Below are positions 41,030 through 47,900 of a stretch of DNA of 64,000 nt, piece after piece. A program made the translations under genes and the position numbers. Source of the DNA: Nonomuraea longispora. Lineage in GTDB: Bacteria; Actinomycetota; Actinomycetes; Streptosporangiales; Streptosporangiaceae. Under the pieces are notes generated by a model, which ran no database searches, had not been told where the DNA came from, and saw only the letters and a program-made list of their open reading frames with translations. The stretch spans positions 1-64,000 of the forward strand of contig NZ_SMJZ01000010.1 of NCBI RefSeq assembly GCF_004348345.1, given 5' to 3'. Positions within the stretch are counted from its first letter, which is position 1. The number at the start of each line of letters is the position of its first letter.

Positions 41030-41994
41030 CCGCCACGTCACCGGTCCTGCGTGCCGCGAACCTGTCCCGGTCGTTCCGGGTGCGGGGCACCGGGCAGGAG
41101 GTGCGGGCCCTGCGCGGGGTGGACCTGACGGTTCCGGCGGGGTCGGCCGTCGGGCTGGTCGGCGAGAGCGGCAGCGGCAAGTCGACGTTCGCCAGGATCG
41201 TCGCCGGCCTGCTGCAGCCGAGCTCCGGCGAGCTGGAGCTGATGGGCACGGGCGTCGCCGGCCTGCCGGAACGGCGCAGGCGCAGGCTCGCCGCCCCGAT
41301 CCAGATGATCTTCCAGAATCCGCGGGCCTCTCTCAACCCGCGGCTGCCCGTGCACCGATGCGTCGCCGAACCGCTCCTGGCTCAGGGCGTGCGCCCGGCC
41401 AGGCAGGAGGTCCTCGGCCTGCTCGACCGGGTGGGCCTGCCCGCCCGGGTCGCGGACCTGCACGCGCACGAGCTGTCCGGCGGGCAGTGCCAGCGGGTGG
41501 CCATCGCGCGGGCCGTCGCGGGGCGGCCCGCGCTCATCGTCGCCGACGAACCGGTCTCGGCGCTCGACGTCTCCGTGCAGGCCCTGGTGCTCAACCTGCT
41601 CAAGGACATCCAGGAGGAGTCCGGCACGTCCTTCCTCTTCATCAGTCACGACCTCGGCGTCGTGCGCTTCTTCTGCGACGAGGTCAACGTGCTGTACCTG
41701 GGCCAGATCGTCGAGCGCGGCGACGCGGAGAGCGTCTTCGCCGACCCGCGGCACCCGTACACCGAGGCTCTGGCCTCGGCGGTCCCGGACGTCTCGGACG
41801 TGCCGGACGGCTCGGGGGCGGACCGGTCGCGGCGCATCGTCCTGAACGGGGAACCGCCGCGACCCGAGCAGCCGCCGCCGGGCTGCGCCTTCCACACGCG
41901 CTGTCACCGCCGGATCGGCCCGATCTGCGACGAGACGGCGCCGGAGCTCCTGCCGACCGCGACCGGCCTCACCCGCTGCCACCTGCGGGCCTGA
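41026..41994 (+). CDS. Oligopeptide ABC ATPase (OppF class)
   Basis: The 322-residue ATPase has Walker [10 protein letters not shown], the Q-loop IFQNPRASLNPRL, signature [14 protein letters not shown], Walker B LIVADEPVSALD, and the Cys-containing C-terminal block GCAFHTRCHRRIGPIC. The GTG start overlaps the previous stop; GGAGGAG precedes it. Last gene of the importer operon. Confidence 0.93.
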   Translation: MTATSPVLRAANLSRSFRVRGTGQEVRALRGVDLTVPAGSAVGLVGESGSGKSTFARIVAGLLQPSSGELELMGTGVAGLPERRRRRLAAPIQMIFQNPRASLNPRLPVHRCVAEPLLAQGVRPARQEVLGLLDRVGLPARVADLHAHELSGGQCQRVAIARAVAGRPALIVADEPVSALDVSVQALVLNLLKDIQEESGTSFLFISHDLGVVRFFCDEVNVLYLGQIVERGDAESVFADPRHPYTEALASAVPDVSDVPDGSGADRSRRIVLNGEPPRPEQPPPGCAFHTRCHRRIGPICDETAPELLPTATGLTRCHLRA

Positions 41995-42147
41995 CCCGCC
42001 CAGGAGTGACAGGTGCACAGCCCGGTGCTTGAGCGTACGCATGGTTTCCCTCCTTGGGAGTCGTGTGCTGACGGGGCCCGTCGTCGGCCGGAACGTTGTT
42101 CTGCTCCCCGCAGAGGTCCATGGAGGGCGTGTGCTCTTCAGCACAGG

Positions 42148-42193
42148 GTTCACAGGCGTGATTCACCTGGGGTTCACTGCGTCCCCCTAGCTT
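42148..42193 (+). promoter_or_regulatory. PHO-box-like promoter of the sulfotransferase gene
   Basis: Three GTTCAC-type units lie in a row: GTTCACAGGCG (42148-42158), ATTCACCTGGG (42161-42171) and GTTCACTGCGT (42172-42182). The last two are exactly 11 bp apart, as in Streptomyces PhoP sites, and the middle one fits the known unit G(G/T)TCAYYYR(G/C)G at ten of eleven positions. A TAGCTT -10 (42188-42193) puts the transcript start at about 42200, so the mRNA would be nearly leaderless. Binding by PhoP is inference. Confidence 0.5.
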
Positions 42194-42201
42194 GTAGCCC
42201 C

Positions 42202-43089
42202 ATGAACTGGAGGTACCGCGCCAACGCCACGCTCGAAGGCCTGACGGGATACACGTTGACGCGCCGCATGCGCAAGGAGGCGCCGAAACCGCCGCCCAAG
42301 CCGCCGCTGGAGTCGAAGCGGCTGCCGGGCGACGCCGTACGCCCGCCCGTCGACGGCGCTCATGACCGGTTGCTGCGCGCGCCGGTCTTCCTGCTGTCGT
42401 CCGTACGGTCGGGCTCCACGCTGCTGCGCGTCATGCTGAACAGCCACTCGCGCATCCACTCGCCGATCGAGACGCACTTCAGGCGGGTGACCGTCGGCCT
42501 CGGCACCGATCCCGTACGGCAGGCCATGGATCTGCTCGGCCACACCCACAGCGACATCGAGCACATCGTCTGGGACCGGCTGCTGCACAGGGAGCTCAGC
42601 CGCAGCGGCAAGCAGGTCCTGGCGGAGAAGACGCCGAGCAACGTGTTCGCCTGGCGGCGGATCTCGACCTGCTGGCCGGACGCGCGTTTCGTGTTCCTGC
42701 TGCGTCACCCGATGTCGATCGTGCAGTCCTGGCACGAGGCGGACCCGCCCAAGCGGCCCATGGAGGAGGCCGTGCCTCGCACGCTGAGTTACATGACCTA
42801 CCTGCAGGAGGCCCGCACCCATCTGGAGGGACTGACGCTGCGCTACGAGAACCTGGTCGCCGACCCCGAGGCGGAGCTGCGCCGGCTCTGCGCGTTCCTG
42901 GACGTCGCGTACGAGCCCGCCATGCTGTCCTACGGCGACAAGGACCACGGCGCCTTCGTCAAGGGCATCGGCGACTGGCGCGACAAGATCCGGGCCGGCA
43001 CGGTCGTCGCCGCCCGGCCCCTGCCCGAGGCCGGGGAGATCCCGGAGGCCCTGCACGAGATCTGCCGCCAGTGGGACTATCTCCGGTGA
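42202..43089 (+). CDS. PAPS-dependent sulfotransferase family protein
   Basis: The 295-residue protein has the two PAPS-binding motifs of sulfotransferases: the 5'-phosphosulfate loop LLSSVRSGSTLLRVML (about 61-76) and the 3'-phosphate segment RFVFLLRHPMSIVQSW (about 165-180). A Lys/Arg/Pro-rich N-terminus (residues 20-45) precedes the domain; there is no signal peptide. It would move sulfate from PAPS to an unknown acceptor such as a lipid, sugar or peptide. No Shine-Dalgarno sequence precedes the ATG, in line with the promoter placement. A Tat-exported sulfatase follows 81 bp later. Confidence 0.85.
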   Translation: MNWRYRANATLEGLTGYTLTRRMRKEAPKPPPKPPLESKRLPGDAVRPPVDGAHDRLLRAPVFLLSSVRSGSTLLRVMLNSHSRIHSPIETHFRRVTVGLGTDPVRQAMDLLGHTHSDIEHIVWDRLLHRELSRSGKQVLAEKTPSNVFAWRRISTCWPDARFVFLLRHPMSIVQSWHEADPPKRPMEEAVPRTLSYMTYLQEARTHLEGLTLRYENLVADPEAELRRLCAFLDVAYEPAMLSYGDKDHGAFVKGIGDWRDKIRAGTVVAARPLPEAGEIPEALHEICRQWDYLR

Positions 43090-43170
43090 GTGACTATTCT
43101 CACCGTCGCGGATGCCATGCTGTGACAGAGTTCGCCGGTGATTTGCCCGCCGTTCCCCGCAACCTCCGAT

Positions 43171-44841
43171 ATGTTGCCCTTCGTGATCAACGGGCTTTCC
43201 CGCCGCACCCTGGTCGCCGGAACTCTCGGCGGCCTCGCCGCTCCCTCAGTGGCCTCCCTAGCGGCCCCCTCAGCGGCCGGCGCCACCGCCGTCCGCGGCC
43301 GCATTCCCTCGCGGCCCAACATCGTGCTCATTCTGGCCGACGACCTCGGATGGGGTGAGATCGGCAGCCAGGGGCAGCGCAAGATCCACACTCCGAACCT
43401 GGACCGGATGGCCGGCGAAGGCGTGCGCTTCGCGACCGCGTACTCGGGGGCGCCGCTGTGCGCGCCGTCACGCTGCGCACTGTTGACCGGGCTGCACGCG
43501 GGCCACGGAACCGTACGCGACAACCCCGAGGGCGGGCCACAACTTTCGCTGACCGACGCCGACCTGACCTTCGCCGAACTGCTGCGGCTGTCCGGCTACC
43601 GGACGGCCTGCATCGGCAAGTGGGGGTTCGGCCCGGAGGCACCCCATCAGGCCTCCCATCCGAACGTGCGCGGGTTCGACGAGTTCTTCGGCTACATCAC
43701 CCACCGGCACGCCCACCGCTACTTCCCGTCGTACCTGTGGCACAACGACAAGAAGGTGTCCATCCCCGGCGGGTCGTACGCGCCGCACCTGTTCCGGGAG
43801 AGGGCCACCGAGTTCATCGCCCAGGGCGGCGACGACCCGTTCCTGCTCTACTACGCCAGCAACCTGCCGCACTCGCCCAGCGCGATCCCCGGCGACGCGG
43901 GCGTCTACGAGAAGGAGCCGTGGAGCGATCCGAACCGCCGCCACGCCGCCCAGGTGACACGGCTCGACACCGACGTCGCCGCCCTGCTGCGGGCGCTGCG
44001 GGACGCGGGCGTCGCCGAACGCACGCTCGTGCTGTTCACCAGCGACAACGGCCCCCACCGGGAGAAGGGCGTGACGCCCAGGCTGTTCAACTCCAACGGC
44101 CCGTACCGCGCCGACAAGCGCGACGTGTACGAGGGCGGCATCCGGGTGCCGCTGATCGCCTGGTCGCCCGGGTTACGCCACCGCGTCGAGCGGCAGCCGG
44201 TCGCCTTCTGGGACGTGCTGCCGACCTTCGCGGACCTGGCCGAGGTGCCGGTGCCCGCCCACCTCGACGGGCGGTCCTTCCGCGGCCTGCTCACCGGCGG
44301 GAGCGCGCCCAAGCACCACCACCTGGTGTGGAACCGGCCGCGCAAGGCCCAGGCCATCCGGCGCGGCCGGTGGAAGGCGGTCCGGTTCGCCCCGAACATC
44401 GCGGGGGCCGGGCCCGAGGGCCGGGTCGAGCTCTACGACCTGTCCGCCGACCCCGGCGAGAAGCTCGACCTGGCGGCGGACCGTCCCGAGCTGGCCGCCG
44501 AGCTGCTGGCCACGCTCGACGCGTCGATCGGGCCGGACCCGCGCACCCCGTACGGACTGCGCACGGAGCTCACGGACGATCAGGTCATCGTCACCCTGCA
44601 CAACGGCTCGTCCCGCGCCTGGCGCGGGGTCGAGCTGGGCCTCGACGGGCCGCGCAAACGGCGGGCGCACCGGGTGCCGCGGCTGGAGCCGGGCGCGGCG
44701 ATCACGGTCGGCTTCCCGCTGCCCGCCAGGCGCGGCCGCATCGTGGCGCGCGCCGCCTTCACCCACGGCGGCCGGCGGCACGTCTTCCGCGCCAGGCACG
44801 TCAGGCGCACGGACGCGGCCGCGCTCCAGCACGTCCGGTGA
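43171..44841 (+). CDS. Tat-exported sulfatase
   Basis: The 556-residue hydrolase belongs to the type I sulfatase/alkaline phosphatase superfamily. A twin-arginine leader (LSRRTLVAGTLGGLAAP) is followed by metal-ligand segment NIVLILADDLGWGE and the sulfatase signature CAPSR (97-101), where Cys97 would become formylglycine and accept the sulfate ester. HRHAHRYFPSY and FTSDNGPHREKG carry further active-site residues. It should act outside the cell or at the membrane. Start is uncertain: ATG 43171, GTG 43138 and GTG 43183 all lack a good ribosome site; the last gives the tidiest Tat leader. Formylglycine-generating enzyme is not coded here. Confidence 0.9.
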   Translation: MLPFVINGLSRRTLVAGTLGGLAAPSVASLAAPSAAGATAVRGRIPSRPNIVLILADDLGWGEIGSQGQRKIHTPNLDRMAGEGVRFATAYSGAPLCAPSRCALLTGLHAGHGTVRDNPEGGPQLSLTDADLTFAELLRLSGYRTACIGKWGFGPEAPHQASHPNVRGFDEFFGYITHRHAHRYFPSYLWHNDKKVSIPGGSYAPHLFRERATEFIAQGGDDPFLLYYASNLPHSPSAIPGDAGVYEKEPWSDPNRRHAAQVTRLDTDVAALLRALRDAGVAERTLVLFTSDNGPHREKGVTPRLFNSNGPYRADKRDVYEGGIRVPLIAWSPGLRHRVERQPVAFWDVLPTFADLAEVPVPAHLDGRSFRGLLTGGSAPKHHHLVWNRPRKAQAIRRGRWKAVRFAPNIAGAGPEGRVELYDLSADPGEKLDLAADRPELAAELLATLDASIGPDPRTPYGLRTELTDDQVIVTLHNGSSRAWRGVELGLDGPRKRRAHRVPRLEPGAAITVGFPLPARRGRIVARAAFTHGGRRHVFRARHVRRTDAAALQHVR

Positions 44842-44862
44842 GCGCCACGCCCTGACACGACG

Positions 44863-44890
44863 GGGGGAGGACCGTGCGAGGCCCTCCCCC
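44863..44890. terminator. Bidirectional terminator
   Basis: GGGGGAGG pairs with CCTCCCCC around a 12-nt loop, between the convergent sulfatase and S8 protease genes. Confidence 0.7.
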
Positions 44891-44908
44891 TTCTCCGCGC
44901 CGGGACGG

Positions 44909-47900
44909 TCAGCGCGTGGCGTAGGCGCGGATCACCTCCTGCGCCAGGGTGTTGCCGTTGACGTCGGAGGCGTTCAGCCGCAGCGAGACGAACCCGGACG
45001 GCGAACGGCCGAGGGTCGTCTCGTACCTGCGCTTGCCCTTGTCCCGCAGCCGGGCGGGCTTCCAGGTGGCGCCGTCGTCGTACGACACCTCCAGCGACAC
45101 GTCCTTGATCGCGCTCTGCTCCGCGCCCTCCTGGTGGCGGAGGGACAGCTCCAGCTTCCGCGACCTGGCCCGGTTCCTCAGGTCGACCGGCGCGTCGAAC
45201 GTGGCCAGCAACAGCGGGATCACCGTCGCCTCCGCGGCCCGCTCGGAGCCGAAGGTCCACACCCCCTTGGTACGGGTGGACAACTTCGCCCAGCCGGCCT
45301 CGTTGGCGAGGTCGTACTCGATGCGGTACTCCGACTTCTCCGGGGAGAGCGTGCCCGACCCCGAGGGCAGGTAATTCGTCTGCCACAGGAGCGTGTCGCC
45401 CTGGTAGAGCCTGAAGTCGGTCTTCATGCCGTGCTCGAACTTGCTGGTGTACGTGTCGCCGTAGTTGCCGGCGGCGTCCACGAAGCCCTGCATGGACACC
45501 AACAGCTTGTCGCCCTCCCGGCGCACCGGGTTGCGCGGGTTGACGCCCGGCAGCAGCGGCTGCTTGAACACCGAGCGGCCGACCCGCTCGCCCGCCTCGT
45601 ACGGCCGCAGGTCCGGCGACGACAGGCTGATGCGCGGCGTGTCCGGGTGCGGCCACATGGTGTTGTAGTGCCGCTCGGGAACCCCGGCCGACGTGGACCA
45701 GCGCAGGTCGGGCCCGGGGGTGACGTACTCGGTCCGGGTGCGCGGCGCCTTGGCCATGGGATGGTTCGTGCTGATCGACGAGGTGTCCCAGGGCTGGAAG
45801 ACGAACCTGGCCTCGTTGACCATCACGTCGTCGGCGAGCTGGGTGTGGAAGTCCGTGTCGATCCTGGCCAGCGACCTCGCCCTGACGACGTAGCGCAGCT
45901 TGTCCCGCACCCCGCCCTTCTCCCGCAAGAACAGGTGGTAGGCGTACGGGCTGGCCACGACGCCCTTGGCCACGATGGGCACGGGCAGCCTGCGCAGCCG
46001 CTCGACCAGCTTCAGCCCTTGCTCCTGCGTCAGCCGCACGGTCGGGACGACGAGCTTGACGCCGTTGCCGCCGGTGGTGACGTCGTGGCCCGGCTGGTCG
46101 CTGTAGACGGCCACCATCTTCGCCCCGGCGGCCGCGGCCGCGTTGGACTGCGTGGATACCGGCACCCCGGGAGTGCGGCGGATGACGGCGAGCTTGCCGC
46201 GCAGGTCGCGGGCCTTGATCTCGCCGGGTGAGCCGCGTCCCACGTCCACCGCCATGAGCAGCCTGGTGCCGTCCAGGCGCGGGTACTCGGTGGCGAAGTC
46301 GCTGAACTGGACCGGGTTCACGTACTGGGGATCGAGTTCGAGCCCGAGGGTGGTCAGGGTGATCTCGGGGGCGGTCAGCCGCCACCGGGTCGAGACGACG
46401 AACGTGCCTTTGGTGACCTTCTTCGTGGGCTGGACGAACAGCCGCTCCTCGACCTGGCCTCCGGGTGAGATGGTGGTGCCGCCGCGCAGCGCGGTGCCCC
46501 GCTCCCCCGCTCGATACCACATGAGCGCGGCGGCCGAGCCGGTGTTCCGCTTCGTCCTGTGGTCGGGCGTCTCGACCTTGACCTCGACGGCCTTGCGGGC
46601 GTCCAGCACGACCTCGGTGTCCTCGCTGATCGTCATTTCGGGGTCGCCGAGCAGGCTCTCGTTGAGCGGCGTGCCCTTGGCCGTGCTGTCCTGGCCGGCC
46701 GGCATGGTGAAGATGTGACCGAGCACCGAGTACGTGCCGGGTTCGACGAGCAGGCAGGTGCCCTTGCCGTACTTCTGGTCGGTGCACGGCTGCGCGGGCT
46801 CGCCGGGGAGCACGCGGCCGACCAGGGTGCCCTGGTCCAGGTTGAGCACGGTGAAGCCGCCGCGGCCCGGCCGTCCGTCGCGGGCGATGCCGCGTACGCG
46901 CAGCTCGACGCGCTTCTTCTCGACGTCGGCGGTCAGCAGCGTGCGCACGGGCGGACCGCCCGCGACCGCGGCCGTCAGCTCCTCGCGTACGAGGCCCGGC
47001 TCGTCCGCCTTGAGCGTGACCTTGGCCTCGGCCGTCCCGGACGCCGGCACGGTGAGGCGGGCCGGCTCGACGGCGAACGCGCCGCCGCTCGACAGGTCCA
47101 GCTCCGCGGGCTCCTGCCCGAGATTGTGGTACGTGACGGTGAGGCTCTTCTCCTCGCCGGGGGCGAGCCTGCCGAAGCCGACCGAGCCCGCCGAGGCGGC
47201 GACCGGGTTCTTCAGCGCCGCGGCCACGTCGATCCTGCCCGCGCCCTGCGCGTCGACCGGGATGTCCCGCCCGGGGTCGGCGGTGGCCATGAGCAGCGAC
47301 TTCAGCTCGCCTCCGGTGACGCCGGGGCGGGCCTGCCGCAGCAGCGCCGCCGCGCCCGCGACGTGCGGGGTGGCCATGGAGGTGCCGGACATCGCGACGT
47401 GGCCGCCGCCGGGCCTGGCGGCGGAGATGTCCACGCCCGGCGCGGTCACGTCGGGCTTGACGGCCTGGTCGGCGACGATCGGGCCCCTGCTGGAGAAGCC
47501 GGCCAGCCGGTCCTCACGGTCGACGGCCCCCACGGTCAGCGCCTCGGGCGCGTCGCCGGGGGCGCCCACGCACGAGTCGCAACCGTCGTTGCCCGCGGCC
47601 ACCACGAACAACGTCCCGTACTGCTCGCTCAGCCGGGAGAGCGCGGCGGTCAGCGGGCCGCCCGCCTCGGAGCTGCCCAGGCTCATGTTGACGATCGCGG
47701 CGCGCTGCTCCCCGGCCGCCCACTCCATGCCGTCGATGATCCACGACAGTTGCCCGAAGCCGTCACCGCCCAGGACCCGGCCGTTCAGCAGGGTGGCGCC
47801 GGGCGCCACGCCCTTGGCGCCGCCGTCCGTGCCGCCGTCCGTGCCGGCGCCCGCGATGGTGCTCGCGACGTGGGTGCCGTGGCCGTGCGGGTCGCCCGTG

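Follow-up and report, generated by a model that had tools for sequence, protein, structure and literature searches.

The window analysed here, a stretch of 64,000 nucleotides (64 kb) from the 9.16-Mb genome of Nonomuraea longispora (contig NZ_SMJZ01000010.1, positions 1 to 64,000), contains a sulfotransferase gene, a compact promoter-like block directly ahead of its ATG, and a sulfatase gene that follows with repeats of its own (Table 1). The first-pass annotation had called the gene downstream of the block a sulfotransferase, and the name is borne out: the protein carries the domain of PAPS-dependent sulfotransferases, Pfam model PF13469 (Sulfotransfer_3), at 94.4 bits against a cut-off of 27 (E-value 1.6e-26). 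The closest ortholog is from Nonomuraea deserti (93%). Among proteins of solved structure, its sequence relatives are CurM, matched by phmmer at an E-value of 8.8e-15, and the tyrosylprotein sulfotransferases, matched weakly; these do not give the substrate. The protein matches NodProtNoeE far under the cut-off, at 38 of 500 bits. An alternative start at GTG 42013, which would give a protein of 358 aa, was dismissed because homology in the 42 orthologs begins only at ATG 42202.

Table 1. Genes and predicted promoter elements of the sulfotransferase/sulfatase locus (window positions)
Feature	Position	Strand	Remarks
Unit 1, TTCACAG	42149..42155	+	conserved part CAG 42153-42155, invariant in 42 distinct promoters
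Unit 2, ATTCACC, predicted OmpR/PhoB-type response-regulator half-site	42161..42167	+	TT[CA]AC in 42/42
Unit 3, GTTCACT, predicted half-site, 11 bp from unit 2	42172..42178	+	TT[CA]AC in 42/42
-10 hexamer TAGCTT (TANNNT type)	42188..42193	+	TA...T invariant; 6-8 nt before ATG in 42/42
Sulfotransferase gene	42202..43089	+	295 aa; ATG start, probably leaderless
Sulfatase promoter unit 1, GTTCGCC	43130..43136	+	11-bp triple array
Sulfatase promoter unit 2, ATTTGCC	43141..43147	+	11-bp triple array
Sulfatase promoter unit 3, GTTCCCC	43152..43158	+	11-bp triple array
-10-like hexamer TATGTT of sulfatase gene	43170..43175	+	TANNNT 6-9 nt before start in GTG-type loci
Sulfatase gene	43183..44841	+	probable leaderless GTG start; Pfam PF00884, E-value 3.5e-52 (scanned from 43138)

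The block reads GTTCACAGGCG (42148-42158), then ATTCACC, GTTCACT, TAGCTT and, after a further 8 nt, the ATG. TTCAC occurs at 42149, 42162 and 42173, with spacings of 13 and 11 bp by direct reading, and these motifs and the hexamer before the ATG are present just as the first-pass annotation had written them. For comparison, one scan of genome contigs supplied 42 ortholog loci, mostly from Nonomuraea, with Planobispora, Thermoactinospora and Herbidospora also represented; together with the window these give 43 promoters, or 42 distinct ones once a duplicate is dropped, and it is the distinct promoters that are counted below. Unit 1 has an invariant C-A-G among them, and units 2 and 3 an invariant T-T-n-A-C in which n is either C or A. 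The conserved A residues at 42154, 42165 and 42176 follow one another in steps of exactly 11 bp (0, 11, 22), lag 11 is the strongest self-match lag among lags 5-22, and 10 bp separate the end of the unit 3 TTCAC from the -10 hexamer. Two adjoining 11-bp units had been described at first pass, and they stand as units 2 and 3, 11 bp apart in every one of the distinct promoters. A third unit had been described as lying 2 bp out of phase, a description that falls: the CAG of unit 1 is in 11-bp phase with both others. Unit 1 looked 2 bp off because it had been anchored on TTCAC, a reading that we dropped since it is not conserved among relatives, which have TTCCCAG, TTCTCAG and other forms. Head-to-tail half-sites in 11-bp phase beside a promoter constitute the generic design of an OmpR/PhoB tandem operator.

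Alignment of the block is ungapped in all 42 orthologs and across the 42 distinct promoters. Although these orthologs are not independent samples, mean column identity in the 42 promoters is 0.84-0.97 over the half-sites and -10 hexamer, 0.50-0.64 between these elements, and 0.28-0.30 in the 60 columns upstream. This sharp conservation relative to upstream DNA is the decisive support for the block. Chance alone finds the strict repeat seldom: the 64-kb window has a single TTCAC-N6-TTCAC where 0.04 would be expected, and 4 of 100 shuffles hold one. A looser search for GTTCAYC-N4-GTTCAYC with up to 3 mismatches returned 8 matches in the window against 10.5 expected, with no enrichment, and the PHO consensus alone would therefore not pick out the 42149-42201 block. 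That PHO-like pairs with 3 mismatches are as frequent in shuffled sequence might suggest an ordinary constitutive promoter in which the repeats arose by chance, but such an origin is very improbable given ungapped, sharply conserved half-sites in at least four genera between flanks that are random.

In the whole genome, TTMAY-N6-TTMAY is found 26 times, against 9 for a reversed control, and only twice when TANNNT is also demanded 10 bp downstream, against none for the control. The sole other match to this combined pattern (L132, G000:C241:3421-3452) sits just ahead of a gene that appears by eye to be response-regulator-like and is possibly autoregulated and leaderless. Searched with a sequence model of the block, the genome yields the sulfotransferase gene at an E-value of 2.7e-10, with the next hit at 0.68; since no other gene in the genome rises above noise in this search, the regulon cannot be read from shared promoters. 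A scan of 41900-45000 with the sigma-70 consensus gave no match, which is what a promoter lacking a -35 element should give.

Beyond the orthologs, 100 of 200 genomes gave homologs in the family search (E <= 1e-40, paralogs included), and upstream DNA was read for 28 family loci (L142-L169) and 40 further stretches, 20 of the latter belonging to the paralog group or near it. Among 30 further distinct promoters, 25 keep a CAG-like unit and a TT[CA]AC unit 2, while their unit 3 drifts to GTAACC, GTCACC, GACACC or GCCACC; the arrangement is absent from the other five, all from one genus (L159, L161, L163, L164, L172). Three homologs were left out of these counts: L186, whose match has no N-terminus, L187, with no block upstream, and L188, with a single GTTCAC. 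The paralogous sulfotransferases (52-58% identical, L191-L209) are preceded by another kind of promoter. In several of them 11-bp repeats of the CAGG.AAC type can be made out, about five such units being visible by eye upstream of the start in L201, and several have TA-rich, -10-like letters close to the ATG.

The gap between hexamer and ATG is 8 nt in 32 of the 42 promoters, 7 nt in nine and 6 nt in one, and only two have an SD-like 4-mer in the 16 nt that precede the ATG. Leaderless promoters place the -10 hexamer 6-9 nt ahead of the start codon and lack a Shine-Dalgarno sequence; the spacing is seen here, at 6-8 nt, in all 42. Passages of PMC4895711 put the share of primary transcription start sites yielding leaderless mRNAs in Streptomyces coelicolor at about 21%, and describe TANNNT as the common -10 element and leaderless mRNAs with TANNNT as common in Streptomyces. 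The first-pass annotation had taken TAGCTT to place the transcript start near the ATG; the conserved spacing agrees, and we infer that a leaderless start is probable. The promoter is thus most likely, as judged from these comparisons, a leaderless one with 11-bp tandem half-sites for an OmpR/PhoB response regulator. In the Nonomuraea phoU loci read (L055-L084), phoU also appears leaderless, with TACGGT 6-8 nt before the ATG and GTTCATC units 22 bp apart upstream of it.

The sulfatase gene adjoins the sulfotransferase gene in 33 of the 42 ortholog loci; no adjacent sulfatase was matched in the two Planobispora and seven Herbidospora loci of this set. Its product has what we take to be, from motifs read by eye, a Tat-like signal (SRRTLVAGT) and an FGly-type motif (CAPSR). 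The array upstream, at 43130-43158, is of a kind that none of 100 shuffles shows, and a strict triple is present upstream of the sulfatase in 19 of 32 usable loci (of 34; L020 and L023 were dropped) against 0.0 expected by shuffling. TANNNT stands 6-9 nt before the sulfatase start in all 21 GTG-type loci and in none of the 11 ATG-type loci. Self-match at lag 11 in the sulfatase upstream region is 0.427, against 0.274 after shuffling, in 25 of 34 related sequences, a set that includes L020 with its mis-called start. Taken by their sequences, sulfotransferase and sulfatase are a conserved gene pair, each with its own predicted tandem-repeat promoter, and both genes probably start leaderless in the window's group. 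The sulfatase with its own array, and the pairing, are new beyond the first-pass annotation, and we found no literature joining Nonomuraea, sulfotransferase and sulfatase. Half-site letters differ between the two promoters, TTNNCC for the sulfatase and TTMAC for the sulfotransferase; a single regulator common to both may be put forward as a hypothesis only. The remaining neighbours of the pair vary between loci. On the upstream side, AnmK, RpiR/SIS and peptide-transporter genes lie near it in 12 to 17 of the 42 loci (L012-L051), a neighbourhood that hints at a link to muropeptide recycling.

The first-pass annotation had likened the units to PhoP sites, and a rival reading of the block is a PHO box through which PhoP would activate the sulfotransferase gene under phosphate limitation, when sulfated polymers might take the place of phosphorylated ones. 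The resemblance is substantial. The Streptomyces PHO box (pstS, phoRP-phoU, phoD) likewise consists of 11-bp direct repeats with a GTTCACC-like core just upstream of the -10, and at least two such repeat units are present in all 42 distinct promoters. GTTCACC, the core quoted for S. coelicolor in excerpts of PMC4415409 and PMC6283541, is the form of unit 3 in some orthologs. The last unit of pstS, whose site in the window's genome reads GTTCACCGAACGTTCACC, is as far from its -10 as unit 3 is (10 bp, by hand count). A position-weight matrix, the check proposed at first pass, was built from the genus's own pstS, phoU and phoD promoters and gives the window units 10.2 and 9.4, within the averages of 6.5-10.8 for known units; about 27 of 1,069,604 background positions reach such scores, the ortholog sites themselves being among them. 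The matrix, however, was built with patterns demanding TTCA or GTCA and is biased at position 4, and the comparison was redone on alignments.

For this comparison, the Pho reference comprised 20 pstS loci, 25 alignable of 30 phoU loci, and 10 alignable of 11 phoD loci (first group), all from the same genus, with phoD letters counted by eye. Two pstS loci with a different upstream region (L105 and L106) and those below the family cut-off (L107-L114) were excluded, and the 130 half-sites counted include neither unit 2 of phoU, which is degenerate, nor unit 3 of pstS, nor any of the second phoD group. At positions 4 and 5, all 130 of these strong Pho half-sites have C followed by A; TCA is found in 129, the exception being CCA in the phoD unit of L290, and T is common at position 6. 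The sulfotransferase promoters differ: of their 84 half-sites, 18 carry A at position 4, and all 84 carry C, never T, at position 6. The window itself has C at position 4, whereas A appears there in at least one of units 2 and 3 in 15 of the 42 promoters. A Fisher p-value of 1.4e-8 for the position-4 contrast ignores relatedness and is indicative only. The contrast holds within a single genome, G005, which has TTAACC at the sulfotransferase gene (L145) but TCA in its pstS, phoU and phoD promoters (L087, L066, L292). The block accordingly differs from the PHO box in its core, which across orthologs is TT[CA]AC, position 6 being always C, rather than TCA[CT], and in a first unit of CAG. The PHO-box label is thus partly contradicted: the 11-bp design and the matrix scores stand, the substitution pattern does not fit, and the comparative data leave phosphate control plausible without favouring it. 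We rate PhoP as the lesser possibility, although it might yet bind in the species of the window, where both units are TTCAC. Elsewhere in the genome, a site reading GTTCACATGTGATTCAT (L128, G000:C151:10017-10032), upstream of a gene named by eye as a secreted PHP-like phosphoesterase, is a possible further Pho-type target.

The C/A variation at position 4 resembles, by sequence, that of GlnR-, MtrA- and AfsQ1-type sites, whose regulators are competitors of PhoP for binding sites. PhoP, GlnR, MtrA and AfsQ1 share sites on nitrogen genes, the AfsQ1 site being GTnAC-n6-GTnAC (PMC6988585), and the overlap among their half-sites means that the motif alone cannot name the regulator. The 11-bp design is itself common to the pstS, phoU, phoD, glnII and amtB promoters of the genus. 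Placement of the sulfotransferase gene in the nitrogen-limitation regulon of GlnR would be in keeping with the near-identical half-sites of glnII, TTAAC-N6-TTCAC in 20 of 21 genomes with GTAAC-N6-TTCAC in L256, and of amtB, TTCAC-N6-GAAAC, with the same 11-bp spacing and C/A freedom at the same position. Excerpts of PMC10704036 give the GlnR box as gTnAc-n6-GaAAc, with a first half of t/gna/cAC in Saccharopolyspora erythraea. The GlnR box calls for a TnAC a-site followed at n6 by a GAAAC b-site, yet none of the 42 sulfotransferase promoters has the b-site: unit 3 is TTMAC in every one, and the block consists of CAG and just two TTMAC units. Unit 2, moreover, has a C following its AC that these promoters conserve and those of glnII and amtB do not; we regard GlnR as improbable. 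The glnII promoters of 21 Nonomuraea genomes (L237-L257) show a four-unit array of the TTAAC, TTCAC, GCAAA, GAAAC type, with small departures in some.

Control by MtrA, which would tie the gene to cell-wall and osmotic control, is likewise doubtful. The published site, G/T-T-G/A-A-C-C-N5-G-T-G/T-A-C-N (passages of PMC5650626; see also PMC13189361 and PMC6265350), is fitted in its first half by the TTAACC variants, and the distant homologs with GTAACC or GTCACC as unit 3, the mtrA gene present in 21 of 21 genomes, and the nearby RpiR/SIS gene (16 of 42 loci) and AnmK-type kinase gene (12 of 42) speak in its favour. The full form, KTRACC-N5-GTKACN, is not found: TTCACC-N5-TTCACT in the window departs from it at three defined positions. 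Sites of the MtrA and AfsQ1 types share TnAC cores and equal spacing with the block, but in the 42 promoters its half-sites open with T, not G. In this genus the promoter of mtrA itself has GTTACC and GGTAACC, not TTCACC; as a source for an MtrA matrix it was dropped, since these single sites were too few. Taken strictly, the PHO, GlnR and MtrA classes each miss at least one feature examined, and the generic OmpR/PhoB design is present. On balance, the substitution pattern leads us to prefer a TnAC-type regulator, of the GlnR/MtrA/AfsQ1 group or an unnamed one, over PhoP.

The block is, on comparative grounds, a real conserved regulatory site of known type at a new gene. It is quite probable that 42149-42201 is a conserved promoter-operator for a regulator of the OmpR/PhoB family, serving a leaderless sulfotransferase mRNA; binding, activation and the leaderless transcript are inferred. 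Direct-repeat binding by an activator of the OmpR/PhoB type is described in part of PMC4415409. In the mechanism that we propose, the phosphorylated form of an OmpR/PhoB-family response regulator, a winged-helix protein, would bind units 2 and 3 (TT[CA]AC) head to tail, and perhaps touch the in-phase CAG unit more weakly. Because the units occupy the -35 location, the regulator most likely recruits RNA polymerase to a promoter with a TANNNT -10 only. By analogy with OmpR/PhoB activators, it would stand in for the missing -35 contact. Repression in place of activation is conceivable. Transcription would start at or just before the ATG, yielding a leaderless sulfotransferase mRNA, and the sulfatase, with its predicted export signal, would be transcribed from its own promoter of the same design.

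The case illustrates how far the half-sites of PhoP, GlnR and MtrA overlap: the block looks like a PHO box, yet the substitution pattern of its 42 promoters is absent from 130 Pho half-sites of the genus. We suggest, tentatively, that the sulfotransferase and exported sulfatase form a dedicated sulfate-on/sulfate-off module in Nonomuraea and near relatives, in which leaderless promoters with 11-bp tandem operators, one for each gene, under at least one OmpR-family nutrient or envelope regulator, would allow a sulfated surface or secreted molecule to be remodelled on demand. If this is true, the sharp footprint would make the regulator findable by one pull-down, and these actinomycetes would have regulated sulfation at the surface or in secreted molecules.
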